Shown here: positions 13,124-57,499 of the stretch, piece after piece
Layout: each line of letters opens with the position of its first letter
Numbering within the stretch: position 1 is the stretch's first letter
Assembly: GCF_029962835.1 (NCBI RefSeq)
Contig: NC_080583.1
Span: 806,001 to 870,000 of the forward strand
Reading direction: 5' to 3'
Origin: Magnolia sinica
Taxonomy: Eukaryota > Streptophyta > Magnoliopsida > Magnoliales > Magnoliaceae
Length of the DNA stretch: 64,000 nucleotides
Notes under the pieces: generated by a model
What the model was told of the DNA's origin: nothing
Database searches by the model: none
The model's input: the letters and a program-made list of their open reading frames with translations, nothing else
Program-made: the position numbers and the translations under genes

Positions 13124-13451
13124 ATTAAAAACTAAGTAAAACATGCAAAGTCACGTAAGTGTCCAAACTTCACAAGAAAATGACTAAAATACCCTCACAG
13201 CCATCACAGCTGAGCTGGGCCATGGCCCTGGCCATTGCTATCTAACTGCACCTGGCTATTGTTTTCTTCTCCCTTCTTCTTCGATGCCCATCTCGACTCT
13301 TCAAACAGAACTCCCATATCTTCCAGCGTCTGCCCTCGAGTCTCTGGCAAGAACGTGTAGAAGAAGATCCAACCGGCGGCAGCGATTCCTGCGTAGAGGA
13401 AGAAGGCCCCACCGATTGTGATAGCGTTTGTAGAGAGAAATGAAAGTCATC

Positions 13452-20370: not shown

Positions 20371-20811
20371 AAACACAATTAGCATCTTGGTCTAGAAGCT
20401 CCTGTAGGCCCCTTATCACTATTATCTATTTAAATTTAAATTCAACCTTGAGCTTTGAGAGTGAAAAGAGGGATATTTTCTTGGAGATATTTGGAAGAAA
20501 AATTGTGTGGATCACTGACTAGTAGTTATCCACACACTCATATCCAACACATGAAAGATATTTTAATAAAGTTAAGTATATTTTAAGAATGAAACACAAT
20601 TAGCATCTTGGTCTAAAGCTCCTGTAGGCCCTTATCACTATTATCTATTTAAATTTAAATTCAACTTTGAGCTTCGAGAGTGAAAAGAGGGATATTTTCT
20701 TGGAGATATTTGGAAGAAAAATTGTGTGGATCATTGACAAGTAGTTATCCACACACTCATATCCAACACATGAAAGATATTTTAATAAAGTTAAGTATAT
20801 TTTAAGAATGA
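20371..20811. repeat. Two-copy direct repeat of about 220 bp
   Basis: Units 20371-20591 and 20592-20811 both begin AAACACAATTAGCATCTTGG and end TTTTAAGAATG. They differ at a handful of bases. The same pair is present in unit B (about 26657-27097), so this small duplication preceded the 6.29-kb one. Confidence 0.9.
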
Positions 20812-21165
20812 AAAATATAGTTGTTATCCTATTTTAAGAATCAAATTTCAACTTAAAAAAGTCTTGAAATGACTTATATCTTACGTGCTCCTTATTGTGT
20901 GTAGTTTGGGTGAAGCTTAATAGTAGAGTGGTCATGCAACAAAGACTCGGTAGGGATATTAAGAGGATTAGAGCTGAGCATTGGACGACTTGAATTAGCA
21001 AACTCGACTTGTCTAACTTGATCTAAACCGAGTGGGCTAGTTGATCCAAATCAAGTAGACTTCATCCAATCCAAACTCAAATCAAGTTTAAGTCACCCAA
21101 TAACTCAACTTGACTCGACCCAAAATCCAACTCGGTACTGGCTCGACTCGCTTCGAAACCCGATT

Positions 21166-21171
<6 letters not shown>

Positions 21172-21219
<48 letters not shown>
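21172..21219. repeat. (TA)n microsatellite
   Basis: About 24 TA units in unit A. The matching tract in unit B (27457-27531) is roughly half as long again, showing length change since the duplication. Confidence 0.95.
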
Positions 21220-21223
<4 letters not shown>

Positions 21224-21303
21224 TAAACCTCAGATTTAACGTTTCAAATCTGAGATGTCATGTGGTTGGGGGCTAGCTGGAGACTAATTCTGGCAGATAC
21301 ACG

Positions 21304-22155
21304 TAGGGGTGTACATCGAGTCGAACCAAGTGGAGCTGACCTCAGCTTGACTCGGCTTGGCCACTAGCTAACCTTAGCTCGAACTCGGCTCAGCTTGGTC
21401 CTCGAGCCTGATTGGCCAGCTCGGCTCGGTTCGATCAGCAGATTGGGCCAGTTCGAGCCGAGTTCGTCATTGCAGCATTTCCACAAACACCTGGACTGCA
21501 CTTTCAAAATCCCACTGTTTGTAAAACAGAAGCAATGGTTTTATAGGTATTTTATCAAACACTTTCTTCGCAACATAAAAACCAAGAAAAAAAAGGATAT
21601 TTGTTTCATGTACATACTTTCCTTGAAAACTGAGACAAGAAACACTGCAAACTTTACTATTAAGGAACAAAATTTTGTGCACAAAATGAGAACAAAATAA
21701 ATAAATTTCAAAATTCTTGAAATGCTATGCCTACAAAGACTAGCACCATTCATTATGACGACCCAAGAAGAGTTTACACACTCACCATTTGAATCAATTC
21801 TGGAAGATGGATCATGAGCTACCAGAATGCAGCAATCATGTCAATGATTACTAAAGAACTCACATGTATAGACTCATTCATACATAATATTAGCATATAA
21901 ATAGATAGGAAAGAGAACTGAGAACCTACACACTTTCAGGTACCAACCACACTTGGTTGAGTCATTTCATCAAACACCCGGTGAGCAACATCAATCGCAA
22001 AGTAACCAAGTCACAGAACTAGTTCGATTCAAGCTGGGGCCAGCTCGAACTCATTTTCGAGCTCAAAAAATCAGCTCGACTCAGCTCGAACTCAGCTTTG
22101 AACCGAGTCGAATCGAGCGAGCTAACTTAGCTAGCTCGGTTCGTGTACACCCCTA
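21304..22155. mobile_element. hAT-type MITE with TAGGGGTGTACA termini (unit A)
   Basis: The ends read TAGGGGTGTACA and TGTACACCCCTA, perfect inverted repeats of 12 bp. They are flanked by GATACACG (21296-21303) and GATACACA (22156-22163), an 8-base target repeat with one difference, as for hAT transposons. Both subterminal regions are packed with GAGCTCG/CGAGTCGAG words that can fold on each other. The centre (about 21470-21950) is unrelated AT-rich filler with no transposase. An outer repeat with (A)GAGCTGAGCATTGG at 20968 and CAATGTCCAGCTTCA near 22442 may be an older element into which this one inserted. Confidence 0.8.
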
Positions 22156-23179
22156 GATACACACGTAGAGTTGTGATTTCAGCTTATGGATACCCGTTGC
22201 ACCCGACTCGACTCGGTGCTAACTCGACCCGATTCGGTACTTGTGACTAGGTCAAAATCGGTTTGGACTGCAACTCGGTGCCAACTCGACCTGATTCGGT
22301 ACTTGTGACCGGGTCAAACTCGGTCTGGATTAGTTCAGGCCAAATCTGGACTCGGATTGGGTTAACAGTCGGGTCGAGTTCGGGTCAAGTATATTTCAAA
22401 ACTAGATCGAGCCGGGTTAACCCAACTCGTCCAACTCCACTCAATGTCCAGCTTCAATGATGACTTTGTGAAATACCATCTATGTATTGCCCCGACTCAC
22501 ATCTAGATATCAACCAAAAGCAGAGGGAGATTGAAAGTCCAAGCAGGGCGACAACAAATAAAAATGAGATAGATGAGTCGTGTACCATTGAAAATATTGG
22601 CCCCCTTATTATTTTTTTTTTCTTTCTTATGCATGCGGCCTATACTTTTCTTACATTTTTTTTTAATTTTTTTTTTCATCTTTTCATCATCTCCCACCTT
22701 TTCTCCTTTCTATATACTTGTTACACTTGTCACTTCCTGATTATTATATGGTCACATATGTTGAAGTAAAGAAATTTAGAATTAACCTAGAAATAAATAT
22801 GATAATTTCTCACTAAGCCAGCTGTGTCCTTGCCCAATCCATGTAGTAAATCTAGGCTCGAGCCCACCTTAAACTATGAGAAGTAGGGCTGTCAACGGGC
22901 TTGGCCCAGATTTTGAACTATTTCGAGTGGGTCGTAGGCGACACCTATTCAAAAATCTGACTTTGACAGATCCGAGCCCGGCCCATATATTCCACTAATT
23001 ACAAGCTAAAACATACATGCATCATTAATGCCTGGCTCGAGGTTGCCAGGGACCCACCACCGGGCAAATGAGACTGTCCAAAGTCAACTACGACCTGATA
23101 GGTTTTTCTTGTTATTCCCAGTCACGATTGATGGACGAGGATAAGGCCCATCATATAAACGGCTGGGATCATTTGGACA

Positions 23180-23771
23180 GGAAGCGGATTGGCTGGTGTA
23201 CCACACACCAGCGACCTGGCTGGTGTGTTTGGTGTCACCAAGTTCTGAGGGTCCCATCATGAGGTATGTGTTATATCAAAACCGTCTGTTCATTTGGCGA
23301 GCTTGTTGTAAGGCTTGATTCAAAAAATAAGATAGATCCAAGAATCAAACGGACCACACTGCAAAAAGCAGTGGGGGTATTGAACATCTACCATTTAAAC
23401 CCTTTTGGGGTCAGAGAAGTTTTGGATCAGTAGGATATTTGTTTTTTCTCTTCATCCAGGTCTGTATAACCTTATGAACGGATTAGATGGAAAATACACG
23501 TAATGGGGCCCTAAGAATGTTTAACGGTGAAAGTCATTGTCCCCACGCTATCTGTAGTGTGGTCCACTTGAGATTTGGATACGACTCATTTTTAGGTTCA
23601 TGCCATAAAATGATCTTTCCAAATAGATGAACGGTGTGGATATAAGGGCCATGTAACTTTGGTCTCTTTTAAACCGTTCGTACAACTCGGATCTTCAGCC
23701 CTCGTCTTGGCACCACACGTACCCACACCAGCCAAGTCGGTGGTGTGTGGTACACCATCCAATCCGCCTCC
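23180..23771. mobile_element. MITE with long inverted repeats (unit A)
   Basis: The left end GGAAGCGGATTGGCTGGTGT is inverted at the right end as ACACCATCCAATCCGCCTCC, with further pairing over GTACCACACACCAGC. There is no coding capacity. It is present in unit B at about 29512-30112 and so predates the duplication. Superfamily is uncertain. Confidence 0.75.
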
Positions 23772-23954
23772 AAGAGAGAAATTCCAAGAGCCTCCCAAGC
23801 TCAGCCCAAAGCGGGCCACCCTGGCCATTCAAAGCACTAATTATTGGACCTGAATTACAAATGAACGGTAGTAGTTCAGCCAATAGGAAATACTCTTCCA
23901 AACAGTAGCTAGGATCGTCTGACTGGTGTGTTTTGGATGGACAAGGGTTCAGGG

Positions 23955-24341
23955 GATCGGGTCCCTGTCTGTGGGGCCCACCTATATCCACGCTGCAGAT
24001 CCAAATCCCAGGTAGACCACACCATACGAAACAATGGTGATCGAATGCCCACCGTTAAAAAAATTCTTAGGGGCCACTGTAATGTTTATTTTCCATCCGA
24101 TCTGTTGATAAGGTCACACGTGCCTGGATAAAGGGACCACACAAATTTCATTATGATCTTAAACTTTTGTGGCCCATAAAGAGTTGTAAATGATCCATGA
24201 CCACTGTTTTCTGTGGTGCGGTCCACCGTAGATTTGGATCAGCTTTAGTTTTGGCCCATGCTCAAAAATGAGCTGGCAAAATGGATGGACAGCATAGATA
24301 TAGGACACATACATCAAGGTGGGCCCCACGGACAGGGATCC
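23955..24341. mobile_element. MITE with GTGGGGCCCAC arms (unit A)
   Basis: The left arm GGTCCCTGTCTGTGGGGCCC and right arm GGGCCCCACGGACAGGGATC are inverted copies. The core has the recurrent pattern of this class: CCACACCATA...AACAATGGTGATCGAATG and a GTGGTGCGGTCCACC block. The partner in unit B (about 30256-30630) has a different left boundary and different arm bases. Confidence 0.7.
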
Positions 24342-24399
24342 AACGACCTTGGTGGATCCGGAGATCCACCGAAGCCGCTGCTGCCATTTTGGATGGATC

Positions 24400-25060
24400 A
24401 CCCATCTATGGTGGGGCCCAACAGATTAACAATTCGGATCTTGTACACGTGTCACCGATTTGAGAGGATGAGAATAGTTTATTATTGATAATTGTTTTGT
24501 ACTCAATGCAGGTAATATCTTTATTCTCAGTGTCCAGAAATGCAAGATGCAATCAACTGCTCAAGTGATTGAACTTTCTTCGGACCCGCCCTCTCACATA
24601 TCGAAACCTGGCATACGTGTGATAAATCCAATCCGTTCATCACGTGGGTCTTACCATCTAGATCCCTTTTGTTAAAATTCTATTTTTTCTATCCGTTTTT
24701 CTGGATAATATAAATGTAGGCAATGGATAAAAGTCCTAAGTTCATTTAACGTAAGTGATTGAACTTTATTTGTACTCCCATTCGTATAAATCGAGAGCTT
24801 TTATTTACTATCCACATAAAAGTAATAGTCATCGTATAAACGGCTAGGATAATTTCAAGATATCCCAGATTCAAAGGGCAAAGTTCATGCGTATGGTATT
24901 ACAACACATCAGGATATATTTCAGCAAACCTCCTTATAAGGATATAAGTATTCATATTAGTCAGCTGGCGCTGTCACCTCTACGGTTACAACGAGACAGG
25001 CTCTCATGGTATGGACCATCGTCTCTAATACGTCTCTCTTAAAACAGAGAGCCGAGTAGG
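24400..25060. other. Stretch without a recognisable gene or repeat
   Basis: Unique-looking sequence with no open frame, motif or repeat that I can name. It is repeated in unit B (30690-31350) with only a base or two changed by eye, making it a good clock for the duplication. Confidence 0.5.
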
Positions 25061-25069
25061 TGGGACGCC

Positions 25070-25385
25070 TACCCCCGCCCATCTCTAGCCACGAAGGGGC
25101 AGTTCTGTGGACGGGCCCACTCCATCCTTTTTTCTCATATTATTATTATTATAATGTATGTGCAAAAAAAAAAAAAAAAAAAAGAGGCAGATCGAGCATT
25201 AGATGCAAGAGTCTTATGTAGTGTGGTCCACTTGAGCGTTAGATTGGCCTTAAATTTTATTTTTTTTTATTATCATACTTTAAAATGATATGAGAAAATG
25301 AATAGAAGTCATGATAAAAAGATACATAGGTGGGCCCGCCCACAAACTGTCTGTTCATGGCTAGAGATCAGCGAGCGTGGCATGC
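25070..25385. mobile_element. MITE with CTCTAGCCA...GGGCGGGCCCAC arms (unit A)
   Basis: The left arm CATCTCTAGCCACGAAGGGG...GGGCCCAC pairs with the right arm GTGGGCCCGCCCAC...CATGGCTAGAGAT. A GTGTGGTCCACTTGAG block lies inside. It is related to the longer-armed MITE at 57500-57900. Its left arm is the target of the CACTA insertion in unit B. Confidence 0.65.
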
Positions 25386-26186
25386 AATCTGTTTTTGACC
25401 ACAGTGTCGCTATAACCATGGGGCCCACCTTTATGTATATATATAGTATATTCGCATGTCCATGTGAATTTTCAGCTCATTTTAGGGCATGAGCTCACAA
25501 ATGAATCATCTCCAAATTACGGATGGACTATACCAAAGTAGTAGGGATTGATGCTCACCACTAAAAATTTCCTAGGGCCCACGTTGATGTTTATGTCCAA
25601 TCATGAGGTTATAAAAATCGGAACCAAGGGAAAAAAAAAAAAATCAAATATCAAGATAAGAAGTTTTTAATGATCGAATCACAACTATTTCCTATGAACA
25701 ATTATGAACCAACAGTAAGAAATATATATATTCTTTTTTATTTGAAGTTTTCTATGATCCACAACTACGCTAACATTATGTGTTAATTTTAAATTGTTTA
25801 TTTCAATGTGGTCCATTTATAATGAGTTTTCTCATCAAACATAAATAAATGAAATCAAATTAAAACTCCTTACATTTGAACGAGTTGGATTTACTTCACA
25901 ACAGATTAGTGGGCCCCACGTAAGATGTAGATGGTTAAAAAGTGGGGTCATTTGAATGTTTCTTCCTTCCTTCCTTGATTTTTTTTTATAACAGGGATGG
26001 GTGATATTTTTTTATTCTATTCCTTCTTCTTTCTTCCTCATTCATCATTCTTACCTTTTTACTTTTTTTTCTTCATTCCTTGATTTTCTTTATAGTTGTT
26101 TTTTAAGTTTATTATTATTATTATTATTTGGTATGAATGGTGAGAGTTTGTGAAATGAAAAAGGTTGTAAAAAAATACTGTAATAA

Positions 26187-26188
<2 letters not shown>

Positions 26189-26238
<50 letters not shown>
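26189..26238. repeat. (GT)n microsatellite
   Basis: About 25 GT units in unit A. The corresponding tract lies at 43953-44001 in unit B. Confidence 0.95.
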
Positions 26239-26243
<5 letters not shown>

Positions 26244-27451
26244 ATAGAAGAATGTTGTAATCGATTAATGTGATGGATGTTGGAATGGATAATCATTGTA
26301 ATGGAAGAATATTGAGATGGAAGTATGTTGTAATTGATAAATGTTATATGGTGAATCATCGATATTTACTTTTGATCGCCCATATTTTCATTGTGTATAG
26401 TTGATATTTAGTGTAGTTTGTCAATATTTACTATGGACCACTAATATTTTTCTCAGAGCTTACAGAGGCAATTCAACTATTTCTCTTGATCATTTTAGGC
26501 CTTGGAGCCCAAAGTCCAGCCAGTTCCAAGTTGAAGGTGGATCACACCATAGAAAATAGCAGGACAATAATGCCCACCATTGAAACTCCCTACGGTTTGC
26601 TCATGATGTTCATTTTCCATCCAACCTATGCGTGAAGTCACACAGGGGTGGGAGGGAAACACAATTAGCATCTTGGTCTAGAAGCTCCTGTAGGCCCCTT
26701 ATCATTATTATCTATTTAAATTTAAATTCAACCATGAGCTTTGGGAGTGAAAAGAGGGATATTTTCTTGGAGATATTTGGAAGAAAAACTGTGTGGATCA
26801 CTGACTAGTAGTTATCCACACACTCATATCCAACACATGAAATATATTTTAATAAAGTTAAGTATATTTTAAGAATGAAACACAATTAGCATCTTGGTCT
26901 AAAGCTCCTGTAGGCCCTTATCACTATTATCTATTTAAATTTAAATTCAACCTTGAGCTTCGAGAGTGAAAAGAGGGATATTTTCTTGGAGATATTTGGA
27001 AGAAAAATTGTGTGGATCATTGACAAGTAGTTATCCACACACTCATATCCAACACATGAAAGATATTTTAATAAAGTTAAGTATATTTTAAGAATGAAAA
27101 ATATAGTTGTTATCCTATTTTAAGAATCAAATTTCAACTTAAAAAAGTCTTGAAATGACTTATATCTTACGTGCTCCTTATTGTGTGTAGTTTGGGTGAA
27201 GCTTAATAGTAGAGTGGTCATGCAACAAAGACTCGGTAGGGATATTATGAGGATTAGAGCTGAGCACGGGACGACTTGAATTAGCAAACTCGACTTGTCT
27301 GACTCGATCTAAACCGAGTGGGCTAGTCGATCCAAATCCAGTAGACTTCATCCAATCCAAACTCAAATCAAGTTCAAGTCACCCAATAACTCAACTTGAC
27401 TTGACCCAAAATCCAACTTGGTACTGGCTTGACTCGCTTCGAAACCCGATT

Positions 27452-27535
<84 letters not shown>

Positions 27536-27606
27536 TCCAAATTTGGTATCAAAAGATGTCATGTGGCTGGGGGCTAGCTGGAGACTATAATTCTGGCAGA
27601 TACACG

Positions 27607-28485
27607 TAGGGGTGTACATCGAGTCGAACCAAGTGGAGCTGGCCTCAGCTTGACTCGGCTTGGCCACTAGCTAACCTTAGCTCGAACTCGGCTCAGCTTG
27701 GTCCTCGAGCCTGATTGGCCAGCTCGGCTCGATTTGGTCAGCAGATTGGGCCAGTTCGAGCCGAGTTCGCCTTTGCAGCATTTCCACAAACACCTGAACT
27801 ACACTTTCAAAATCTCACTGTTTGTAAAACAAAAGCAATGGTTTTACAAGTATTTTATCAAACACCTTCTATGCAACATAAAAACTAAGAAAAAAAAGGG
27901 TGTTTGTTTCATGTACATACCTTCCTTGAAAATTGAGACAAGAAACACTGCAAACTTTACTATCAAGGAACAAAATTTTGTGCACAAAATGAGAACAAAA
28001 TAAATAAATTTCAAAATCCTTGAACTGCTAAGCCTATAGAGACTAGCACCATTCATTACGATGACCCAAGAAGAGTTTACACACTCACCATTTGAATCAA
28101 TTCTGGAAGATGGATCATGAGCTACCAGAATGCATGCAATCATGTCAATGATTACTAAAGAATTCACATTCACATGTATAGACTCATTCATACACAATAT
28201 TAGCATATAAATAGAGAGGAAAGAGAACTGAGAACCTACACACTTTCAGGTACCAACCACACTTGGTTGAGTCATTTCATCAAACACCTGATAAGCAACA
28301 TCAACCGCAAAGTAACGAAGTCATAGAACTGGTTCGATTCGAGCTGGGGCCAGCTCGAACTCATTTTCGAGCTCAAAAAATCAGCTCGACTCAGCTCGAA
28401 CTCAGCTTTGAACTGAGTCGAATCGAGCTTTTTCGAGTCGAGTCGAGCGAGCTAACTTAGCTAGCTCGGTTCGTGTACACCCCTA
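27607..28485. mobile_element. hAT-type MITE with TAGGGGTGTACA termini (unit B)
   Basis: Partner of 21304-22155, with the same 12-bp ends. It is about 27 bp longer, in part from an extra TTTTTCGAGTCGAGTCGAG stretch near the right end. There is no transposase. Confidence 0.8.
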
Positions 28486-31384
28486 GATACACACGTAGGT
28501 TTTGAGTTGTGATTTCAGCTTATGGATACCCGTTGCACCCGACCCGACTCGGTGCCAACTCGACCCGATTCAGTACTTGTGACCAGGTCAAAATCGGTCT
28601 GGACTGCAACTCGGTGCCAACTCGACCCAATTCGGTACTTGTGACCGGGTCAAACTCGGTCTGGATTAGTTCAGGCCAAATCTGGACTCGGATTGGGTTA
28701 GGAGTCGGGTTAAGTTCGGGTCAAGTATATTTCAAAACTAGATCGGGCCGGGTTAACCCAACTCGTCCAACTCCACTCAATGTCCAGCTCCAATGATGAC
28801 TTTGTGAAATACCATCTATGTATTGCCCCGACTCACATCTAGATATCAACCAAAAGCAGAGGGAGATTGAAAGTCCAAGCAGGGCGACAACAAATAAAAA
28901 TGAGATAGATGAGTCGTGTACCATTGAAAATATTGGCTCCCTTATTATTATTTTTTTCTTTCTTATGCATGCGGCCTATACTTTTCTTACAATTTTTTTT
29001 TTTTTTTTTTCATCTTTTCATTATCTCCCACCTTTTGTCCTTTCTATATACTTGTTGCACTTGTCACTTCCTGATTATTATATGGTCACATATGTTGAAG
29101 TAAAGAAATTTAGAATTAACCTAGAAATAAATATGATAATTTCTCACTAAGCCAGCTGTGTCCTTGCCCAATCCATGTAGTAAATCTAGGCTCGAGCCCA
29201 CCTTAAACTATGAGAAGTAGGGCCGTCAACGGGCTTGGCCCAGATTTTGAACTATTTCGGGTGGGTCGTAGGCGACACCTATTCAAAAATCTGACTTTGA
29301 CAGATCCGAGCCCGGCCCATATATTCCACTAATTACAAGCTAAAACATACATGCATCATTAATGCCTGGCTCGAGGTTGCCAGGGACCCACCACCGGGCA
29401 AATGAGACTGTCCAAAGTCAACTACGACCTGATAGGTTTTTCTTGTTATTCCCACTCACGATTGATGGACGAGGATAAGGCCCATCATATAAACGGCTGG
29501 GATCATTTGGACAGGAAGCGGAATGGCTGGTGTACCACACACCAGCGACCTGGCTGGTGTGTTTGGTGTCACCAAGTTCTGTGGGTCCCATCATGAGGTA
29601 TGTGTTATATCCAAACCGTCTGTTCATTTGGTGAGCTTGTTGTAAGGCTTGATTCAAAAATAAGATAGATCCAAGGATCAACTGGACCACACTGCAAAAA
29701 GCAGTGGGGTATTGAACATCTACCATTTAAACCCTTTTGGGGTCAGAGAAATTTTGGATCAGTATGATATATTTTTTTTCTCTCTTCATCCAGGTCTGTA
29801 TAACCTTATGAACGGATTAGATGGAAAATACAAGTAATGGGGCCCTAAAAATGTTTTAACGGTGAAAGTCATTGTCCCCACGGTATTTGTGGTGTGGTCC
29901 ACTTGAGATTTGGATACGACTCATTTTTAGGTTCATGCTCTAAAATGATCTTGCCAAATAGATGAACGGTGTGGATATAAGGTCAGTGTAACTTTGGTCT
30001 CTTTTAAACCGTTCGTACAACTCGGATCTTCAGCCCTCGTCTTGGCACGACACGTACCCACACCAGCCAAGTCGGTGGTGTGTGGTACACCATCCAATCC
30101 GCTTCCAAGAGAGAAATTCCAAAAGCCTCCCAAGCTCAGCCCAAAGCGGGCCACCCTGGCCATTCAAAGCACTAATTATTGGACCTGAATTACAAATGAA
30201 CGGTAGTAGTTCAGCCAATAGGAAATACTCTTCCAAACAGTAGCTAGGATCGTCTGACTGTGAGGCCCACCTATATCCACGCTGCAGATCCAAATCCCAG
30301 GTAGACCACACCATAGGAAACAATGGTGATCGAATAACCACCGTTAAAAAAATTCTTAGGGGCCACTGTAATGTTTATTTTCCATCCGATCTGTTGATAA
30401 GGTCACACGTACCTGGATAAAGGGACCACACAAATTTCATTGTGATCTTAAACTTTTGTGGCCCATAAAGAGTTGTAAATGATCCATGACCACTGTTTTC
30501 TGTGGTGCGGTCCACCGTAGATTTGGATCTGCTTTAGTTTTGGCCCATGCTCAAAAATGAGCTGGCAAAATGGATGGACAGCATAGATATAGGACACATA
30601 CATCAAGGTGGGCCCCACAGTCAGGGATCCAACGACCTTGGTGGATCCGGAGATCCACCGAAGCCGCTGCTGCCATTTTGGATGGATCACCCATCTATGG
30701 TGGGGCCCAACAGATTAACAATTCGGATCTTGTACACGTGTCACCGATTTGAGAGGATGAGAATAGTTTATTATTGATAATTGTTTTGTACTCAATGCAG
30801 GTAATATCTTTATTCTCAGTGTCCAGAAATGCAAGATGCAATCAACTGCTCAAGTGATTGAACTTTCTTCGGACCCGCCCTCTCACATATCGAAACCTGG
30901 CATACGTGTGATAAATCCAATCCGTTCATCACGTGGGTCTTACCATCTAGATCCCTTTTGTTAAAATTCTATTTTTTCTATCCGTTTTTCTGGATAATAT
31001 AAATGTAGGCAATGGATAAAAGTCCTAAGTTCATTTAACGTAAGTGATTGAACTTTATTTGTACTCCCATTCGTATAAATCGAGAGCTTTTATTTACTAT
31101 CCACATAAAAGTAATAGTCATCGTATAAACGGCTAGGATAATTTCAAGATATCCCAGATTCAAAGGGCAAAGTTCATGCGTATGGTATTACAACACATCA
31201 GGATATATTTCAGCAAACCTCCTTATAAGGATATAAGTATTCATATTAGTCAGCTGGCGCTGTCACCTCTACGGTTACAACGAGACAGGCTCTCATGGTA
31301 TGGACCATCGTCTCTAATACGTCTCTCTTAAAATAGAGAGCCGAGTAGGTGGGACGCCTACCCCCGCCCACTACACCAAAACTG

Positions 31385-31815
31385 CAAAAAAAGGACGGTC
31401 CAAAACCGTCTTAAATGACCAAAAAGGACGGTCATAGACCGTCGCAAGGGCCGTCAAATTTTGACGTGTCGTATTACTTAAAGGACGGTCAAAAACCGTC
31501 ATTTTTATTGACGAAAAAAGGACGGTCATGGACCGTCCTAAAAAAGGACGGTCGTGAACCGTTCTTAAAAAGGACGGTCTCGGACAGTCTCTTATGAGCC
31601 TTTAAAGGACAGCCATTGACCGTCCTTAAAAAAGACTGTCGTAGGCCGTCTCTGATGAGCCTTCAAAGGACGGCCATAGACCGTCCTTTAAAAGGACGGT
31701 CATGGACCGTCCTTAAAAAGGACTGTCATGGTCCGTCTCTTATGGGCCTTCAAAGGACGGCCACAGACCATCCTTTAAAAGGACGGTCATGGACCGTCCT
31801 TAAAAAGGACTCTCA
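31385..31815. repeat. Left subterminal palindromic repeats of the CACTA element
   Basis: About a dozen units of the form AAGGACGGTC-x-GACCGTCCTT, each a near-perfect hairpin of 20-24 bases, with spacers such as TTATGAGCC and TTTAAAGG. In En/Spm such repeats are binding sites for the element-encoded TnpA protein; that role is inferred here. The same units occur near 4820-5225. Confidence 0.85.
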
Positions 31816-31829
31816 TGGATTCCTGATAT

Positions 31830-34800
31830 ACACCTGTTAAATATATTTCATCCAAACATAAAAGTCATTGTATTCTGATATGATATTCCCCAATAGATTA
31901 GTCGATGCAATGAAAAGTTTGCTAATATGAATTTCACTAAAACATGTTATACACAAGGAAGCATTCATCATCTATTTTAGTCAACCATGAAAAGTAGCTA
32001 CAATACAAGCAGATCTATGGATAAACTGTCTAAAGATATAAGAATTATTTTCACATTTTTTTACTGAAATTTCTATCCAAACTGTCCCTAAATCATGTGG
32101 TTGGAAAAACTTTTAGGAAACAAGTCATCCATGGGCTTGGCAGATAAACTGTCTAAATCACAGGACTGATGTCTGAAGATATTGTCTTGTAAATTACAAT
32201 ACACATCCAACTCTAGTGGGAGTTAGAAACAGAACCAGCATCCTTTATATTCTTGCAAGGAACTAGATACCACTATATTTCTATTTCTTTTGAAGTAAAG
32301 AACAAGAGTTATTATGAGGATTACACATCATCAGAAGAACGAAGTAGTGAAAAACAAACAATATGATGTGCATTAGTCTTGCTAAGTTAGCATAACTACT
32401 TAACATCATGATCATCATATTAATTATATTGGAAACTCAAATACAGAGAGGACTACTAAAGGCACTTGTAACCAATCAAAGAAGCAGAAAAGCATACCAA
32501 ATGCAATACTTTTACTTCAAGAAAAAAACCAAATGCCTAAGATGACTTCGTTTTCATACAAGTTTTCATGTCCCTATTAGAAACCTGTTACATATCTGAG
32601 TATGAACTCATGACTCCATTAAGTGGAGTCCTGCAAACCTAGAACCATGGACAAAAATGATTGTCAGTATTTAATCAAGTTGGATGAGATATAAAATATA
32701 AAACTAATAAAATATGCCGACAACACAATTGATAATCATTACCATGACAACCTAAAGAATAAAAAGCATTCCTAGATAGGTCATCCTACAAATGCCTCTT
32801 TAACAGGAGGTGAGCTATACTCACGCAAGCATGCATGCACAAGTGCACTAAGGCCATTATGTTGTTGATCAGCATGAAGGTATTTGTCTAGAAAACTTCT
32901 AGAATGTTGTTGGCAACCATGAGGGTCCATTCATGCTTTGGATACCGTTGCACAAGTGCACTAAGGCCATTATTTGTATACAAAAAAATTTGATACTCTG
33001 CTTGAGTGGAATGGTTGATGCATAGGCATTAAAAATGCCACCGTGGTACACATGTAACTTAGATTGAACTGTCCAAATTATGCCCCCAAATCTAGATAGA
33101 TATATAAAAAATAATAGTAATAACTTCATCAATGGGCTACGTACCTATTAGACAAGGTGAGTTAGACTCACTTACCTGAATTTTATGTGCAATAGAAGCT
33201 AGATTGTGGCTTGCACCTGGTAGAAAGCTTTGATCATGCACCCATGTGAACTCCCTAGCGAAACATTATGGACCTCCTCTCAAGCCTAGACAATAAAATA
33301 ACTTCTTCTACTTTAACTCATATTACAAAGATGGACAAACATAAAATGAAAAAAAAAAGAAAAAGGAACAAATGAAACAGTTCCTTGGTACATATTATAC
33401 TAATTACAACTTGGACATTTTCCTTGCCAACTAGCATGCAGTCTCTAGCTTGATGGATGCCATTTTTGCAGTGTTTTCTACAGATCCTCTGATGCAATTG
33501 ACATGCATGGAGAGGTGGTAGAGCTGGCTGATTTCCCAGGGAAGGTGGTCGTTGTCTCAGCTGGAATTGTGCCTGACAAAAAAGGTAGTGTAAATACCTA
33601 TGTGAAGAAGGAAGACTGGCAGCTTTGGAAGATGGACATAGTGCCGAGAAGATGGACATCAGTAGTTTCTTTTAGACAAAATAGAAATTCCTACTTTTAA
33701 TTCAATCAGCCATATGTTGATGATAACACGAAAAACCAAAAAGACCCTGCTCGAGTCTTTTTCTAGTGCAAGAAGAAACTGATTTCAATATCACATGAAG
33801 TTTATTGTGCTGCCAAGTTCAGAACAGGAAACAATGAATAAAATTTGGCTGCAGCAATCATAACTAATGACAGTTTAGATTCTAATTTTAAAAAGGAATG
33901 GATATCCCACCGTAATAAGAACAACACCATAACACCATTTGTTCACAGGATTTTTCAGGTTGGATACAGTTGCCATGCAACCATTCAAACTGGCTACTAT
34001 AATGTGATAGTAGATATGTTACAAAATGCTTGCATACAAGATGGTGGGCCCATACGAAAACGATGGATGAAAATAGGCAACACTGCTACACTTCTAAGAC
34101 ACATTCCAAACATCATATTGTTTGAACAGTCCTAACATATGAATTAGTGGGCATCTTTTTTGTTAAAACAGGAACATTGGATTTTTCACTTTTTAACTTT
34201 CCAATAAATATCCCATGTTGGAAATGTGGCTACATGGCTATTAAATCAGCCATATGTTGATGATGGTGACGTAATAGCCCAACCCAGGACCCGATTCCTG
34301 CTTTTAATCATAAGAAAATTCTCTCTAATTAATGAGGAACGATCACATACAAACATTGGATGCTATGCTTACTATGCTACCCTGTTATTAGGACTGCTCA
34401 TAGTAAGCTATGTACCTGAGCTTCACACGTGGCAGATCCTCTGTTCAAGAAACACATTGCCTAATTTTCAGTCCTGAACTGGAAAATATGTTTGCCATAC
34501 TCCAGTTGAAGGTTTTGGATCTTCTGACATAGTGGACTATTGCTAGCATATGGGTGACACTCCCCTCTGTGCAAACAGCCTAAAAACAGAATATGCATGG
34601 AACAAGAATTTCAGTGGAACTGTTTACTACATTGTTTCCTGTGTGAATTGGTGCTTTGGGAACTCCAAACTCAGCAAACAGACAATCAATCAGAGTAGGG
34701 ATCAAGGATGACAGGTACCTTGAGTTCTGCACCAGTTTTTGCAATATTTTGCCAGAAAATCAGAAAAGAATCAGTTTTTAGAGAGTGCAGTTTTCATACC

Positions 34801-36212
34801 TAATATATCCATAGCTCAAGACCCTTGCTGACAAGCCCCATGAATGCATGATTAGGATTCCTAGCACAAGCCTGTTTAGTATAATAGAACAAAACCCATG
34901 AAAGGCGGAGTTAAATCAAATCAATTTTAGTTTCTATGATAATGTAGCTAAAGAATTTTCCAATTTGCACTGAAATAATTGACAATACAATCCATTGTAT
35001 CCAACATTACACTCTTAAACAGAGGATTGTTCAAGAAAAGAGAACAATCTTTGTTCTGATAGAATCGGTCCACACGGAAATCCTCTTCAATGAGTATCTT
35101 CTCGCGTGTAAGTAATAGGCGCCAAGCAAGAAATCCTCTTCAATGACTAGTCTTGAGAACCAAATCTCTAAATTTACAATGTGCACATGATTGGTCAAGA
35201 AGAAAAAGAAGTGTTGCTAAAGATGTGAAGAAATAGTAACTCAAGAAGGATCTGGAAATTTTGGCAGCAGCAACAGAGATGGTAGCAAAGATTATACTCA
35301 TCAATCCAAATATATGCATCTAATATTTTCTTAAATTTGGCAAAAATTCTAGATAAATTTAAAAGTCAGTGGACTGCTATGAATTCCAGTCTTGCAAGAC
35401 CCAAACATGCACACATACACATGAAAAAATTGGATCTAATTAATGCAGGATGACATTTCTTTTCATTTATTTTTTATACCAGACATCATTATCATCCTGC
35501 ACAATTTATTTACAAAAATTAATTATAATAGTTCATGCATAGTGGAAACTCTCCATAATACCAAACTTCAAAAGCGAAATACCTGAGTGCAACTTGTCTT
35601 GAACAAAATTTGAATTGGTTTTTTGTGAATTTTTATAGAAAAAGAAATATTATTATTTTTCTATGCTAGCAAATTTATCAAAAATTTCTCATAGTATAGG
35701 AAAAGAAAGTGACTTAAAGATGAATTCATCTAAAAGTCACACCTAATTCCTCCAAACCCTGGAATTTCAGGCAAAATTGGGCTTCCTAAAATATTCTTGA
35801 TCGCTTTCAAAGATGAGAAGAAAAAATTTAGCATCAATTAAAGCATTAACTCCTTTCAACTGTATCCTCACAACTTAATTAAGAGGAAATCAAAAGCTTA
35901 CCAAAGACATGTATGAGTGCTACTTATTCCTCTAAAACTTGAAAACTGATGGCAAAATCGAGTTTCTTGTGTTTATTTGCCATGATCTGATTCAATATGG
36001 GAAAAACCAAAGCAAGTTCAATTTTCTTTTTCAAGGTCATCATCACAATCTCAAATAACAGGAAGATAAAAATAGAGATGACTTCATGCAAAATCACCAC
36101 CCTAATTCATGTAAAAGATTACTACAACTTCCTTGGGAAATCTAGTGTAAACTCATGCGACTAATCTAATTTCCCTGTGAGCTTTCTAGAATCAGGAAAT
36201 CAAAGGAAATTA

Positions 36213-36266
<54 letters not shown>

Positions 36267-38740
36267 TTTCGTTCCTCCAAAAAAAAAGGATTTAAAAAAA
36301 AAAAGAAAAAAAAAAAGAGTTTCTTATATAACTTGCAATGATGCCTACCATAAAACAAGAAAATGGAACTAACTAAATTATTATTTTTAGCTTATAATCA
36401 TGAGCTTAAAATCGAGTTTCTTGCAGTAATTCACCACAATTTCTTCCAAAAAAGGAAAAACCATAGAAAATGCGATTTTTATTTAATTTTTTTAAATTTC
36501 ATCATAATGTCATATTAGCAGGAAATGAAAATAAAATGTATCATAAATTCATGTAAAATATCTGGAAAATTAAGGCAATATCTAAGTTCCCTACATGTTC
36601 ATTTGTCACAATTTCCTCTTGAGAATTCCGTGAGAGCTGAGACATTGACATGCCCTGTGAAAATGACTATTGCGAATGCGACCGGAACTACGAAGAACCT
36701 TGGCTTTTACCAAAAACTGAAGTATCTGCTCCTGGTGGGATTGGATTTCCTCTCCTGCATGAACAGAGTAAGAAAATCACCACAAAAGAAGACTATAAAT
36801 GTGACCGGATCGGGTTTTCTTGATAAATCTGGACCTGGAATGTGGTGGAAGGACAGAAATGGAGCTCAGATCGCAGGCCTTGCTGATCTTGAACTTCATT
36901 ATCTGATTTTCAGATATATGCGAGACTCTAGAGGGAAGCAAATGTTGAATTATAAACCATTTTCACTTCCCGAAAAAGCGATTAAAAAAAATAATAATCT
37001 AATTTTACAATGAAAGTTCTTCGAATTCAGTGAGGCAAAGATGTCGTAGTTTGGATGTATCGATCTTAGAGCACTTGAAAGGGGAGTCAAACTCTACATC
37101 ATTTTCAGCTCCAAACGAAGCTACTTCAAGAAATTTATAGCATCACCAAAAATCTCTTAGATTCCATCCTGAAAGCTAATCATTCAAGCACTCTTTTAAA
37201 AGAACACAAATTCTTCACCATTTAAACCATTAGGAACAATTCAAAAGAATTTTTAACATCACATATGTAAATCACAGTGACAAATCTCATTCTCACCTAT
37301 TTTTCGGTTAGGAATTTCTCAAGGGATTTTCAGATTTTTGAAGTTTTTCTCAGTGTATTTATTGGGAAAATCTCACTTAAAACATAAAATTTTAAAATAT
37401 TTATGATAAATTAACATATCATTTTATTTATATGCATGTATGTAATGATTATTTGAAAAAAAAATAATTCAAATAATTCCATTTAATATCATAATAAATT
37501 CGGTATAAAATAACAGATAATTAAAAACTGCCGAGATTTTGGTATCTCGTGATAATGACATGATAACAATTTTTTTAATTAATATTTCACAAAAATTGCA
37601 AGATTTTAAAAAAACTCGGCAATATTTGTCAGGGACATGAGAATCTCTTAGATTGCCGGTAAGAACAAAAAGGAAAAATCTACCCTTCTCTAGAGCTAAT
37701 CAATTCAGGAGCTCTCTTGATGGAAGATGTTGAATTCTGCACCATTTTCCACTCAGGAATAATCACTTCAAAGACATTTCCAACATAAAAGATGCAATTC
37801 TCTCAGATTCCTGCAAAACAGAACCTCCAAGATCAATTCAAGGGATTGTACGCCATTTTCAGTTCTAGAAAGTGATTCAAAGGAACTTTGCAACGTACAT
37901 ATGAAATCTCTCAAACTTTGCAGGAAAAAAAACTCCACTTTCGGATCTAATCATTTCAAGAGCTCATTTGAAAGAAGAACTTGAATCCTACACCATTTTT
38001 AGATCTGAAGGAAGCATTTCAAAAAATATCTCTCCAAAAAATAAAATTTTGATAATATCATTCATAGGGATTAAACACAAATCTCATTGAGGCCAGACAT
38101 TAAAAAAATGGCGTGCACCATCTTCTATGCAACAAAACTGATGAGATCGAAGAAACTAGGGACCTCATTAGATGGGCCAGGCGTTGATGAAACGTTGCCT
38201 TAAAATGAAACGTGCACCATCTTCTATGCAACAAAACTAATGATGGAAGAAACAGAAATGTAGAGTGCAGTCATGCGAATGCTCACCTATTTGAGATGGT
38301 TCTGCACGGTGACTGGTGAGGAAGAGGGCGCTCGAAAGACTCACAGCCCAATCTCGACCGGCGATGAAGAGGGTGCTCGAAAGAGGAAACGGAGAGGAAG
38401 AAAATGGCGGTCGAAAGAGGGATTTGGAAATTCCTCTTCTGAAATGGGATAAAAGATTCAAATCCGGAAAATGTGAGTTTTCCATAATTTATAAAATAAA
38501 CGGTCTTCACAACCGTACAATTAAGGTTCAAGTTACTTGATGGTTAAGATACTATTACATAAGAAAATTATAAATATAAACAATCTACAGCAAGACCCAT
38601 TATTTGGATGGTCTGGATATCCATATCTCAAACCCACTTCTTCCATGAACAAGTCACCACTATTTTACTTAAAATACAAAACTCACAACTGTTCACCGTG
38701 CAAATAACAACGCTATCTTAAGCTTTGGATCTGGTAGGGC
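31830..38740. other. CACTA interior without a supported gene
   Basis: AT-rich, intron-like sequence. The frame at 33503-33700 (MHGEVVELADFPGKVVVVSA at its start) has protein-like composition and an open reading through KKEDWQLWKMDIVPRRWTS, but no family is recognised and no flanking exons can be joined. The frame at 36525-37013 is likewise unrecognised. A 27-base motif, GTGCACCATCTTCTATGCAA plus flank, occurs twice about 97 bp apart (38115 and 38212). If fragments of host genes were captured, these are the best places to look. Confidence 0.4.
36216..36266. repeat. (CT)n(CA)n compound microsatellite
   Basis: About 14 CT units followed by about 12 CA units inside the CACTA element. It has the same CT/CA compound form as 17137-17193 but in reverse order. 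Confidence 0.95.
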
Positions 38741-39402
38741 TCTATGGGACTCACCGTGATGTTTGTGTTTAATCCACACCATACATCTAGTTGTAAAAAA
38801 AATTTTAATGTTGATAAAAGAAAATTTAGCTCGAAATAAATCTCACATGAACCACACCACAGGAAAAACAGTAATGATTGGACGTCCACCGTTAATTGAC
38901 ATCACCATTTTCTGTGTGTCAAACATCTACCCCATCAGTCAGATGCACCATTCCATGGTGGGGCCAAGGATTAAAACTCAAGTCAATCTGTAACTTGTGT
39001 GGGCCACACCACAAACAAAAGTTGAGAGGGGTTACCCTCCATTAAAATATTCATAATTATTTTTTGGGTCCACCGAGATGTGGTTCACAAATCCAGCCCA
39101 TCCATTATGTGTGTGCCACTTGGATGAGGGGTCATACCAAGTTTCAGACGCATCCAAATTTCAGATGGGGCCCACAAAGTGCTTTTATATATTTTAGGCA
39201 TGTCTTCACATGATTTTAAATGATATGGCCCATCGGAGTTCCGTATACGGCTGATTTTTGGGATATCTCATAATTTAAAGGGGACCCATCAAATGCATGG
39301 TGTTGATGTTTGACACACATCATAGTGAGGCCCACACAGCTCGACCTCATGGGGAGTTCCCATGAGCTCTACGTAAAGAACCTTTCTCCATATATATTAT
39401 TA

Positions 39403-39450
<48 letters not shown>

Positions 39451-41165
39451 TTAAAAAAATATAAAAACCCATTATGCATTTGTTATATCCACACCGTCCA
39501 TCCATTCTGAGATATTACTTTAAGTCATTAGCCAAAGAATGAGACAGATAAAAATTTGTAGTGGACCCCGCCACAGAAAACAACGAGGGTGATTCCCACT
39601 GTTGAAACTATCCTAAGGTCCATTGGAATGTTTATTTGAAATCCAACTGGTTCAAAAGTTTTTTTTTTTTTTTTTTTTTTAAAACATGAAATAAGGAAAT
39701 ACACAAATATCAACTTTATCAAAAACTTTTGTGGCCTTTAGAAGTTTTTAATGGTGGGCATTACTGTCCCATTGTTTTCTGTGCTGGGGTCCACTAGAGC
39801 TTTGGATTTAACTCGTTCTTTGGACATTGCCCTAAAATGATATCTCCAAATGGATGGAAGGTGTGGATACAAAACATACATCATGGTGGGGTCTAAAATT
39901 GAGAGGTATATAAAGATCATTTTATGACTTGATCCCAAAAATGAAAAGTATATAAATCGATATCTTAGGTGCACCACACCATATGAAAACAATAGTGATT
40001 GGATATCCATCATTAAAATCCTCCTAAGGCCTATTGTACTGTTTATTTGACATCCAATATGTTGGTTAGGTCATACATGGCCAGATGAAGGGGAAAAATA
40101 AAAATCAGCTTGATCCAAAACTTTTATGGCCCCAAAATGTTTTTTAATGGTTGACGCTCATTCAACACTGTTTCCTGGAATGTGGTCCATTAAAGATTAG
40201 GATATATGTCATTTTTGGTCTCATACTGTAAGATGATCTTTAAAAATAGATAGACGACATGGATTAAACGCATACATCATGGTAGGGCTCATAGAGCACC
40301 AACCACCAGCCATTGGATGGTATTAGGGGGAGTAGTCAATCCGTTCCCCTTATTTGTAGTGTGGTCCACTTAATCTTTGGATATGATTCATTTTTTAGAT
40401 AATTCTCTAAAATTATCTCGAAAAATGGATGAACGGTGTGGGTTGATCCTAAATTTTCAGTAAATCCAAAGCTCAAGTGGACCATGCCACACCAAACAAT
40501 GTGGAATAATGATTTCTAGGTTGATACCTTCCTTAGGCCCACAGTAATGTTTATTTGCCCTCCAACCTGTTCATAATATCAAAAAGATGTGAATGAAGAA
40601 AAAACACAAATATTTACTCGACCCAAAACTTCTATGGCCTCCAAGAAATTTTCAATGGTAGAGGTTCAATCACACTATTTCTTATGGTGTGGTACACTTG
40701 AGCTTTGGATATGCTTTCTTTTGATTCTTCAGACCTCAAGTTATTTGTTAACATGGATGAACGGAGTGGATAAAATAAATAAATAACGGTGAACCCCATA
40801 GAGTTTACTCTGGTAAAGGAAACAAGTAACTCAAATGTAGTGGAGAAAGGTTTCCTTAAAACATTCATAATCATATATTGGGCTGCCTAATTGTGATTCA
40901 CATATCCAACCCACTCATTATGTGTGTCCCACTTGGATGAGGGGTCAGACCAAGTTTCAACCGCATTCAAAACTCATGTGGGCCCCACCAAGTACTTTTA
41001 TATTTTTTAGGATGCCTTCACATAGTTTTAAATGGTATGGCCCACTTGAGTTTCGTTTACCGATGATTTTTGAGATATCTTATAACCTAAAGGGACACAT
41101 CAAATCCACGGTGTTGATGTTCGACACACATCTTGATGGGGCCCACAAAACTTATTAACATCAAT
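38740..41165. repeat. MITE-derived block inside the CACTA element
   Basis: Dense in GTGGGGCCCAC, GGACGTCCACCGTTAA and GTGTGGTCCACTTGAG motifs typical of the inverted-repeat MITEs in this window. Two stretches, about 39060-39345 and 40860-41150, are diverged direct copies sharing CCACTTGGATGAGGGGTCA, CATGTCTTCACATG-like and GGTGTTGATGTT(T/C)GACACACA landmarks. Between them lie a TA microsatellite (39406-39445) and the right end of a GGGGGAGTAGTCAATCCG MITE (about 40330-40350). Exact element borders are blurred. No gene. Confidence 0.6.
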
Positions 41166-41569
41166 TCTTAGGTGCTCATGAGGTCAGTAAGTTGGGTCAC
41201 AATTTTAACAAGAATATTTGGACCATTTTACATGTCTAGTCCATTCACTCTATTTTACTGATCAATACTCTCAATTTGACTAGTTACTCGCCTCAATCAT
41301 GCTACATATGAGAAAGATATTGGGCATACAAGATTGATCAACAATTTCAGTGAAATTTGATTTAAACATCTGAAGTTATTTACTCTTTAATTTGAACTGA
41401 TTAGATTGTCCAAAAATGATTAAAGGTTCAATTAGTGGATGTGCCTAATAATTTAGTAATTTTATTTTTCACAAATAAATTTAACATTTTTTAAAAAAAA
41501 TGTATATGTTTTTTACTCTTTTAACTAAATATCATTTTCATTATAAATAAATTTAACATTTTTTTTTAC

Positions 41570-42140
41570 AAAATTTAGTTTTCTTTTTAAAAATATTTTT
41601 TTTAACAATTTGTCAATTTTTTTCACAATTTTGTTTAATTTTTTTAATTTTTTTTTTCAAAATATCATTTTTTTAATCTCACCTTTGTTATCTAACTTTT
41701 CAATTTTCTTGTCAAAATACAAAATTTAGTTTTCTTTTTAAAAAAATATATTTTTTTACAATTTGTCAATTTCTTCACAATTTTGTTTAATTTTTAAATT
41801 TTTTTTTTCAAAATATCATTTTTAAAATCTCACTTTTGTTATATAACTTTTTAATTTTTCTTGTCAAAATACAAAATCTAGTTTTCCTTTTTAAAATATA
41901 TATTTTTTTACAATTTGTCAATTTTTTCACAATTTTGTTTAATTTTTTAAAATTTCTTTCAAAATATCATTTTTTAAATCTCACTTTTGTTATATAACTT
42001 TTTAATTTTTCTTGTCAAAATACAAAATCTAGTTTTCTTTTTTTTAAAATATATTTTTTTTTGCAATTTGTTAATTTTTTCACAATTTTGTTTAATTTTT
42101 TAATTTTCTTTTTCAAAATACTATTTTTTTTATCGAATTT
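41570..42140. repeat. AT-rich tandem repeat, period about 151 bp
   Basis: Units start at about 41571, 41721, 41873 and 42023 with AAAAT(T/C)TAGTTTTC and run through ACAATTTGTCAATTT, CACAATTTTGTTTAATTTTT, CAAAATATCATTTTT and CTCACTTTTGTTATATAAC. There are nearly four copies, the last incomplete. The array lies just inside the right subterminal region of the CACTA element. Confidence 0.85.
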
Positions 42141-42354
42141 TATTTTTTTCAAAATTATCAACATTATTCAAAGTTCTTAATTTTTTTTTTTTCGAAATCT
42201 AGATTTTTATAAAATTACAATTTTTTTTTCAAAATTTAAACTTTTCTTAAACATTGTTAATTATTTTTCTAAGCTTTTCAACTAATTTTTTTTTTGAAAT
42301 TTATAATTTTTTTGGGCTTCTTAAATTTTGACTTGAGCATTAGGATAGCCTTTG

Positions 42355-42825
42355 ACAGGGCTATAAGACGGTCTAGGACCGTCTCTAATAAAGACTGTCT
42401 TTGACAGTCTCCAATAGAGACGGTTTAGGACCGTCTCTAATATAGACGGTCTTTGCCAGGACTATAAGACGGCTAAGGACCGTCTCTAATGGAGACGGTC
42501 TTTGACCGTCTCAGATTACAAGTAAAAGACGGCCAATGACCGTCTCTAATAGAGACGGCCAATGGCCGTCTCAGATGACCGCATATAAGACGGTCAAGGA
42601 CCGTCTCTAATGTGGACGGCCAATGACTGTCTCAAATGACCCATACAAGACGGTCAACGACCGTCTTAAATGATTTGTGGACGTTCAAATTTTTTAGACA
42701 ATATTAAGGACGGTCAGGGGCCGTCTAAAATTTTAGAGACGGTTTACAGCCGTCTCTAAAGTGTCTTTAAACCAAGCAATTTTAGAGACGGTCCAGAACC
42801 GTCTCTAAATCCGTCCTTTTTTTTC
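42355..42825. repeat. Right subterminal palindromic repeats of the CACTA element
   Basis: Units of the form AGACGGTC-x-GACCGTCT joined by CTAATAGAG or CAGATGAC spacers. The core GACGGTC/GACCGTC matches the left end, but the flanking bases differ (AGACGG here, AAGGACGG at the left). The two ends have diverged into distinct but compatible repeat sets. Confidence 0.85.
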
Positions 42826-43499
42826 ATTTTTCACGTAGTGGCCCATCTCTAGCCACGAAGGGGCAGTTCTGTGGACGGGCCCACTCCATCCTTTTTTCTC
42901 ATATTATTATTATTATAATGTATGTGCAAAAAAAAAAAAGAAAAAAAGAGGCAGATCGAGCATTAGATGCAAGAGTCTTATGTAGTGTGGTCCACTTGAG
43001 CGTTAGATTGGCCTTAAATTTTATTTTTTTTTATTATCATACTTTAAAATGATATGAGAAAATGAATAGAAGTCATGATAAAAAGATACATAGGTGGGCC
43101 CGCCCACAAACTGTCTGTTCATGGCTAGAGATCAGCGAGCGTGGCATGCAATCTGTTTTTGACCACAGTGTCGCTATAACCATGGGGCCCACCTTTATGT
43201 ATATATATAGTATATTCGCATGTCCATGTGAATTTTCAGCTCATTTTAGGGCATGAGCTCACAAATGAATCATCTCCAAATTACGGATGGACTATACCAA
43301 AGTAGTAGGGATTGATGCTCACCACTAAAAATTTCCTAGGGCCCACGTTGATGTTTATGTCCAATCATGAGGTTATAAAAATCGGAACCAAGGGAAAAAA
43401 AAAAAAAAATCAAATATCAAGATAAGAAGTTTTTAATGATCGAATCATAACTATTTCCTATGAACAATTATGAACCAACAGTAAGAAATATATATATTC

Positions 43500-43951
43500 T
43501 TTTTTATTTGAAGTTTTCTATGATCCACAACTACGCTAACATTGTGTTAATTTTAAATTGTTTATTTCAATGTGGTCCATTTATAATGAGTTTTCTCATC
43601 AAACATAAATAAATGAAATCAAATTAAAACTCCTTACATTTGAACGAGTTGGCTTTACTTCACAACAGATTAGTGGGCCCCACGTAAGATGTAGATGGTT
43701 AAAAAGTGGGGTCATTTGAATGTTTCTTCCTTCCTTCCTTGATTTTTTTTTATAACAGGGATGGATGATATTTTTTTATTCTATTCCTTCTTCTTTCTTC
43801 CTCATTCATCATTCTTACCTTTTTACTTTTTTTTTCTTCATTCCTTGATTTTCTTTATAGTTGTTTTTTAAGTTTATTATTATTATTATTATTTGGTATG
43901 AATGGTGAGAGTTTGTGAAATGAAAAAGGTTGTAAAAAAATACTGTAATAA

Positions 43952-44006
<55 letters not shown>

Positions 44007-45150
44007 ATAGAAGAATGTTGTAATCGATTAATGTGATGGATGTTGGAATGGATAATCATTGTAATGGAAGAATATTGAGATGGAAGTATGTTGTAATTGA
44101 TAAATGTTATATGGTGAATCATCGATATTTACTTTTGATCGCCCATATTTTCATTGTGTATAGTTGATATTCAGTGTAGTTTGTCAATATTTACTATGGA
44201 CCACTAATATTAAGAGTAGACCGCTGATATTTGCACTGTGGATTAATTGCAAATATTCTTTGTCGATTGTTAATCCCATGAAAATAGTCATGACTCTCTC
44301 GTTACATGTCCGATCTTATGTTCGTTGGAAAAATAATTTGATTAACTTTCAAATGAATTTGAAAATATTTCATTTGAATACTATTTTATTATCCAAATTT
44401 GGACCCAAAGTTCATTATTTACTGTAGATCGATATTCATTATAAGCCATCGATTTAACAAAAATAGTCATAACTCCTCGCAACATGTTCTATTTGGGTGA
44501 TCTTATACTTGTTGAAAAAATAATTTGATGATCTTTCAAATGTATTTAAAATAATCTCATTTGAACACCATTTGACTTTTCAAAAATAGGCCTAAAGTTC
44601 ATCCATGATCCATAGTGAATGATAAATTTTGCACTCACTTTTGGGCAGTCAAATGTGATCATTTTAAATCAATTTGAAATTTCATCAAATTACATTTTCA
44701 ATGAGTCAAGATCATCCAAATTAAATATATAATGAAGGAGTTATGACTATTTTCGTTAAATGTTGACCCATAATGAATATCAGCGATTCACAGTGAATGA
44801 TAAACTTTGGGCCCACTTTTGAAAAAATAAATAGTATTCAAATGAGATGACTCTATAACCATTCTAAAATTCATCAAATTACCTTTCTAACGAGTAAATT
44901 AGATATATAATTTAGTGGGGTGTGCCACGTTTTGATCACATTCACATCTTCTGTGGAGCCTAATGGGTTATTGTGAAGTAAATTTAACTCGTCCACATGT
45001 AAGGTGTTTTAATTTATTGTCATATGCTCAAATTTGGAGACAAAATTCATCACATATGGACCACACTGAAGGAAAAAAAATTAGAATTAACACGTAATGC
45101 TACTATAGTTGTTGTAAAAAAAAATTTGTGGGTTCACGACTATCCAATTA
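43500..45150. repeat. Long imperfect foldback repeat
   Basis: Outer arms are about 43500-43710 and 44940-45150. CATCTTACGTGGGGCCC... read on the minus strand of the left arm matches CATCTTCTGTGGAGCC... on the right arm, followed by GTTGTGAAGTAAA / ATTGTGAAGTAAA and AATTAACAC. An inner pair, ATAGTCATAACTCCT near 44463 and AGGAGTTATGACTAT near 44735, is also inverted. No transposase is seen. The breakpoint of the 6.29-kb tandem duplication (44206) lies between the arms. Confidence 0.65.
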
Positions 45151-57496: not shown

Positions 57497-57499
57497 GCA

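Follow-up and report, generated by a model that had tools for sequence, protein, structure and literature searches.

The locus analyzed here raises the question of whether a tandem pair, one unit of which is interrupted by a CACTA transposon while its sister holds the empty site, can serve as an internal clock for the insertion, as a preliminary description of the sequence had proposed. The window, i.e. the whole stretch of DNA analyzed, comprises 64,000 bp of the Magnolia sinica genome (bases 806001-870000 of contig C11), and genome searches covered 1.84 Gb in 127 contigs.

A base-precise CACTA insertion

The insertion and its empty site are made up of the following features:
31366..31368, no strand assigned: left target-site duplication GCC (direct read)
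31369..42840, plus strand: non-autonomous CACTA element, 11,472 bp
31369..31819, plus strand: left terminal and subterminal region with GACGGTC/GACCGTC repeats
31825..31852, plus strand: motif GATATACACCTGTTAAATATATTTCATC, the point of the missing telomere-like cassette
41567..42129, plus strand: AT-rich tandem repeat, period 151 bp, 3.7 copies
42350..42840, plus strand: right subterminal repeats and right end CACGTAGTG
42841..42843, no strand assigned: right target-site duplication GCC (direct read)
25072..25090, plus strand: preserved empty site with a single GCC at 25077-25079 (direct read)

Direct reading confirms a real, base-precise CACTA insertion of a known kind. CACTA (En/Spm, CMC) transposons are understood here as defined in PMC8978399. 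The left end of the element, CACTACACCAAAA, begins at 31369 and its right end, ...CACGTAGTG, finishes at 42840, giving the termini 5'-CACTA ... TAGTG-3', with direct and inverted subterminal repeats over several hundred base pairs. A 3-bp duplication, GCC/GCC, surrounds the element and corresponds to one GCC at the empty site. The preliminary description had reported these ends and the GCC repeats on both sides, and had held the insertion to be defined to the base; both statements stand, with ends, duplications and empty site all located. Its span of 31366..42843 is likewise right in its coordinates, although it includes both target duplications. The motif GACGGT/ACCGTC occurs 16 times in the first 500 bp and 17 times in the last 572 bp of the element, and once in the 10.4 kb between. 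This clustering, together with matching 3-bp duplications in 9/9 family members (see below), argues against chance as the origin of the insertion ends.

The element is classified as non-autonomous because no Transposase_21 (PF02992) gene was detected between 32000 and 41500. A six-frame Pfam scan of this interior returned no domain at E <= 0.05, which rules out a hidden transposase there. The longest stop-to-stop frame of the element is 164 codons.

The uninterrupted sequence CCCCCGCCCATCTCTAGCC is present once within the window, at 25072-25090, one base from the position (25071-25089) first given for it. Here, in tandem unit A, the same flanks as those of the insertion are joined over one GCC without a footprint, and the non-repeat parts of the element have no match in this unit.

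Mosaic divergence of the tandem units

The tandem pair consists of two units and their tracts:
20159..26444, plus strand: tandem unit A (empty), 6,286 bp
26445..44207, plus strand: tandem unit B, interrupted by the element (pieces 26445-31368 and 42841-44207)
20159..24332, plus strand: old tract of unit A, differing from unit B at 132 of 4,139 aligned sites (counted up to 24347)
24333..26444, plus strand: young tract of unit A, differing from unit B at 6 of 2,093 sites (counted from 24348)
30622-31368 and 42841-44207: counterpart of the young tract in unit B

The limits originally given for unit A are those found here, while the end of unit B had been placed one base short, at 44206. Unit A was aligned against unit B after removal of the element, yielding 138 differences over 6,232 aligned sites and 17 indels, or a divergence of 2.2% for the whole unit. 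Divergence is not uniform along the units, as a tandem duplication used as a single clock would demand, but amounts to a K of 3.27% in the old tract and 0.29% (Poisson range 0.10-0.62%) in the young tract (Fisher's test, p = 4e-17). The best change point lies at 24333, with a log-likelihood gain of 36.9 compared with a maximum of 8.7 among 500 shuffles scored at every fifth site, and is directly followed by 713 identical bases. The young tract reaches to the end of the unit and contains the insertion site, the flanks of which differ at 1/742 (left) and 5/1,351 sites (right; p = 0.43). Length differences are found mostly in the old tract, with 13 of the 17 indels before 24333; 27456-27531 in unit B corresponds to 21170-21225 in unit A, and unit B is without 46 bp present at 23923 of unit A.

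Both units contain a 219-bp tandem pair (20370-20813 and 26656-27099), which must thus be older than the split of the units at that position. Protein-coding content of the units was considered and rejected, as six frames of 20000-26600 gave no Pfam match.

Age of the insertion and order of events

The proposed internal clock fails because the units are mosaic (132/4,139 versus 6/2,093 differences), and whole-unit divergence was rejected as a clock for the same reason. Counting differences over the whole alignment, as had been suggested, is misleading: since the insertion sits in the young tract, the overall count overstates the relevant divergence nearly eightfold. The insertion had further been described as younger than, or restricted to one side of, the duplication; it is indeed present in unit B and absent from unit A, but being younger is only one possibility. 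Either it took place after the split of the two young-tract copies, or it existed as a segregating variant by the time two haplotypes came together, as a unit pair derived from two haplotypes allows it to have segregated before the duplication. The data bound only the coalescence of the two young-tract copies, so that 0.29% is only an upper bound for the insertion.

Gene conversion, crossover with a divergent allele and the joining of two haplotypes all fit the mosaic, and with only two units to compare in the window the three histories are inseparable. A gene conversion event spanning about 2.1 kb of the two units, following an older duplication (3.2%) and followed by insertion into unit B, is a serious candidate to which we give somewhat less than an even chance. 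It would explain the sharp change at 24333 with its 713 identical bases and the equal divergence of the two insertion flanks, but a conversion tract is not required to extend to the very end of the unit, as the young tract does. Just short of even is also our estimate for a history free of conversion, in which the duplication itself is young (0.29%) and either the first 4.2 kb of unit A were exchanged by a crossover around 24333 or the units came from two haplotypes and have different coalescence times along their length, these two versions being weighed jointly. Here, a single crossover would account for a young tract that reaches exactly to the unit end, at the price of about 3% allelic divergence, and the insertion may have existed as a polymorphism before the duplication took place.

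That the units are two haplotypes of one locus set in tandem by the assembly is improbable. A falsely duplicated locus would show just this succession of left flank, A, B and right flank, and the divergences between A and B are within the range possible for alleles. However, the window contains no N, and the A/B junction and the right flank have only 4 bp (TATT) in common, which fits end joining; both points make an overlap-based assembly error unlikely. Least probable is that both units formerly held the element and unit A is an excision product: excision of CACTA elements is established general knowledge, but a single GCC with neither a footprint nor any remaining element sequence would require precise restoration.

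Surroundings of the locus

A diverse family of repeats of about 400-500 bp, 65-84% alike, is found inside the element and around it, with copies at:
12588-13108
23249-23641
29578-29976
39469-39886
46488-46933
56084-56593
57001-57512

The copy at 39469-39886 aligns with its reverse complement at 68%, as expected of a fold-back element. An open sugar-transporter frame of 520 codons is located at 49667-51229 on the minus strand (PF00083, E 2e-106), and a related, interrupted stretch, 87% alike in DNA, lies across the tandem units from it, at 13586-14695. Further matching pairs are 13120-13450 with 49581-49909 and 19528-19778 with 50999-51257. Judging from these similarities, the sugar-transporter pair and the further pairs probably represent an older, larger duplication around the locus. 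A DDE_Tnp_4 transposase fragment at 53112-53597 (minus strand, E 1e-14) is unrelated to the CACTA element. Searches of the window for RNA genes gave 0 matches at the Rfam gathering cut-off and 0 with ARAGORN.

A large CACTA family with telomere-like arrays

The first 501 bp of the element were used to search the genome for relatives, with 40 places scored of 1,646 candidates; the 451-bp block 31369..31819 is the part common to the other scored left ends. At ten places, a non-random sample consisting of the best ten after the window element, 20 kb were fetched. Both ends were seen in eight of these relatives, all with CACTA/TAGTG-type ends (one begins CACTATGCC) and perfect 3-bp duplications, which brings the duplications to 9/9 members with both ends seen when the window element is included. 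These nine members range from 4,370 to 20,993 bp, with the following lengths for the relatives:
C5: 4,370 bp
C6: 15,670 bp
C9: 11,409 bp
C10b: 20,993 bp
C10c: 14,595 bp
C11: 15,091 bp
C14: 18,842 bp
C17: 17,427 bp

Right ends of the remaining two relatives, C10a and C1, were not found within 20 kb. The exact 16-base terminus CACTACGCCAAAACTG has 469 copies in the genome compared with 1 for a reversed control; the terminus of the window element itself, CACTACACC, is outside these 469 exact copies. Inside the 17.4-kb C17 relative (C17:16992300-17012299), plastid-type psaA/psaB sequence was observed at about 4484-5164 and 5502-5897 on the minus strand (PF00223, E 1e-135 and 6e-57), and its arrangement, in which the end of one gene is succeeded by the beginning of another, is consistent with a transfer of plastid DNA.

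Nine of the ten fetched relatives carry a degenerate TTTAGGT/TAGGTT array of 2.7-16.3 kb located 0.7-1.0 kb inside the left end; the C9 relative and the window element have no such array. A second family member in the window does carry one:
4845..5243, minus strand: second family element, left end CACTACGCCAAAACTGCG...
1086..4410, minus strand: telomere-like TTTAGGT/TAGGTT array of this element, 3.3 kb

The right end of this second element, searched for as exact CACGTAGTG or CATGTAGTG only, was absent from 14.2 kb beyond the window start. The telomere unit of the genome is CCCTAAA/TTTAGGG, as found at the start of C10 (three other contig ends inspected had no telomere), and the arrays are therefore called telomere-like, not telomeric. 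An exact 29-mer leading into the array has 1,571 copies in the genome and 0 for its reversed control, a number that counts lead-ins and not arrays. Along the part of C1 that was listed, the 29-mer lies 0.4-0.7 kb inward of 14 among 25 exact termini. A 29-mer without an exact terminus, at C1:3705199, is also situated within a left end of CACTA type, which has the terminus CACTATGCCAAAACAG.

Probable loss of the cassette and search for a transposase

The structure of the C10b relative suggests how the array-free copies may have arisen. Its cassette consists of the array plus about 0.6 kb, the latter about 90% alike in six relatives, and is followed by a second copy of the motif that precedes the array. 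Between the pre-array copy of the C11 relative and the post-array copy of C10b, this motif extends over 50 bp with one mismatch; the first copy in C10b itself is 9 bp shorter. The window element and the C9 relative have a single motif copy and then the sequence found behind the cassette in C10b. The resulting 27-base junction occurs at exactly four places in the genome, on C3, on C9, in C10b and in the window, which make up the subfamily of the window element. Three of the four are without an array, the C3 copy being judged from its first 2 kb, in which no TAGGTT was found.

The cassette was apparently removed from the array-free copies by deletion between direct repeats. Over an interior of about 5.9 kb, the window element and C9 differ at 84 of 5,931 sites (1.43%), the window element and C10b at 117 of 5,932 (2.00%), and C9 and C10b by 1.74%; the array-free copies thus group together, as one deletion would predict. 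The reverse direction, in which C10b acquired the cassette, is conceivable.

At least 150 places of the genome hold Transposase_21, this being the number scored among 1,669 candidates, each of them above the cut-off. In a comparison by eye, none was seen within 100 kb of any of the 40 left ends scored among 1,646 candidates or, among the matches listed, within 25 kb of 100 CACTACGCCAAAACTG termini. Scans for a transposase covered five elements including that of the window, partly and some on one strand only, and found none in the scanned parts of C10b, C11, C14 and C17.

Discussion

We propose that a non-autonomous CACTA element, moved by cut-and-paste transposition with transposase supplied in trans, inserted into a GCC target of unit B, or of a haplotype that later became unit B, with unit A preserving the state before insertion. 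Common ancestry of the units would be far more recent in their last 2.1 kb, which include the target, than in their first 4.2 kb, as a result of gene conversion, crossover with another haplotype or a duplication joining two haplotypes. The element would come from a large family in which a telomere-like tandem cassette is normally present at the left end, its own lineage having lost the cassette, most simply via deletion between direct repeats. Taken as a whole, this combination of a trans-mobilized insertion, mosaic units and a cassette-losing lineage appears highly probable to us. The ends, the duplications, the empty site, the mosaic, the family and the missing cassette are direct observations, whereas mobilization in trans, the sequence of events and a deletion as the direction of the cassette change are inferred.

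The window element resembles the En/Spm (CMC) CACTA transposons of plants in its CACTA...TAGTG ends, 3-bp duplication and subterminal repeats of several hundred base pairs, but differs in that no transposase was found in it (32000-41500). Its end CACTACACCAAAA agrees with the En/Spm-type CACTACGTGAAAA only in CACTAC and scattered bases. Plant interstitial telomeric repeats are telomere-like short repeats distant from chromosome ends. The family arrays are alike in being telomere-like short repeats off chromosome ends, but their unit is mainly TTTAGGT/TAGGTT instead of TTTAGGG and they hold a fixed place in a transposon family. Jozin, a CACTA-like element of Chenopodium, is described in PMC8978399 as carrying a 5,550-bp array in an element of 16,523 bp, this array being a 171-bp satellite near the 3' end of Transposase_21-bearing elements. 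On that description, Jozin shares with the window family a kilobase-scale tandem array within a CACTA-like element, while the array found here is degenerate, telomere-like, near the left end and present in 9/10 sampled relatives, though not in the window element. A full-text literature search returned no title or abstract opening that deals with telomere-like arrays in a CACTA family.

Taken alone, the insertion is of the ordinary CACTA kind, its empty site being found in a paralogous copy. The locus is a worked example of why mosaic divergence must be looked for in filled/empty tandem pairs before they are relied on as clocks; the family context is more interesting. We slightly favor the view that the family acquired a telomere-like satellite as a permanent component of its left end and has dispersed it to well above a thousand interstitial positions, in arrays of 2.7 to 16 kb in the sampled copies, with lineages like that of the window element losing the cassette through recombination between direct repeats and continuing to transpose. 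If so, the family would be a main source of dispersed telomere-like DNA in this genome, and the cassette would be dispensable for movement in cis. Sister copies with and without the array, 1.4-2.0% apart, offer a comparison that could reveal its effect on transposition, chromatin and recombination.
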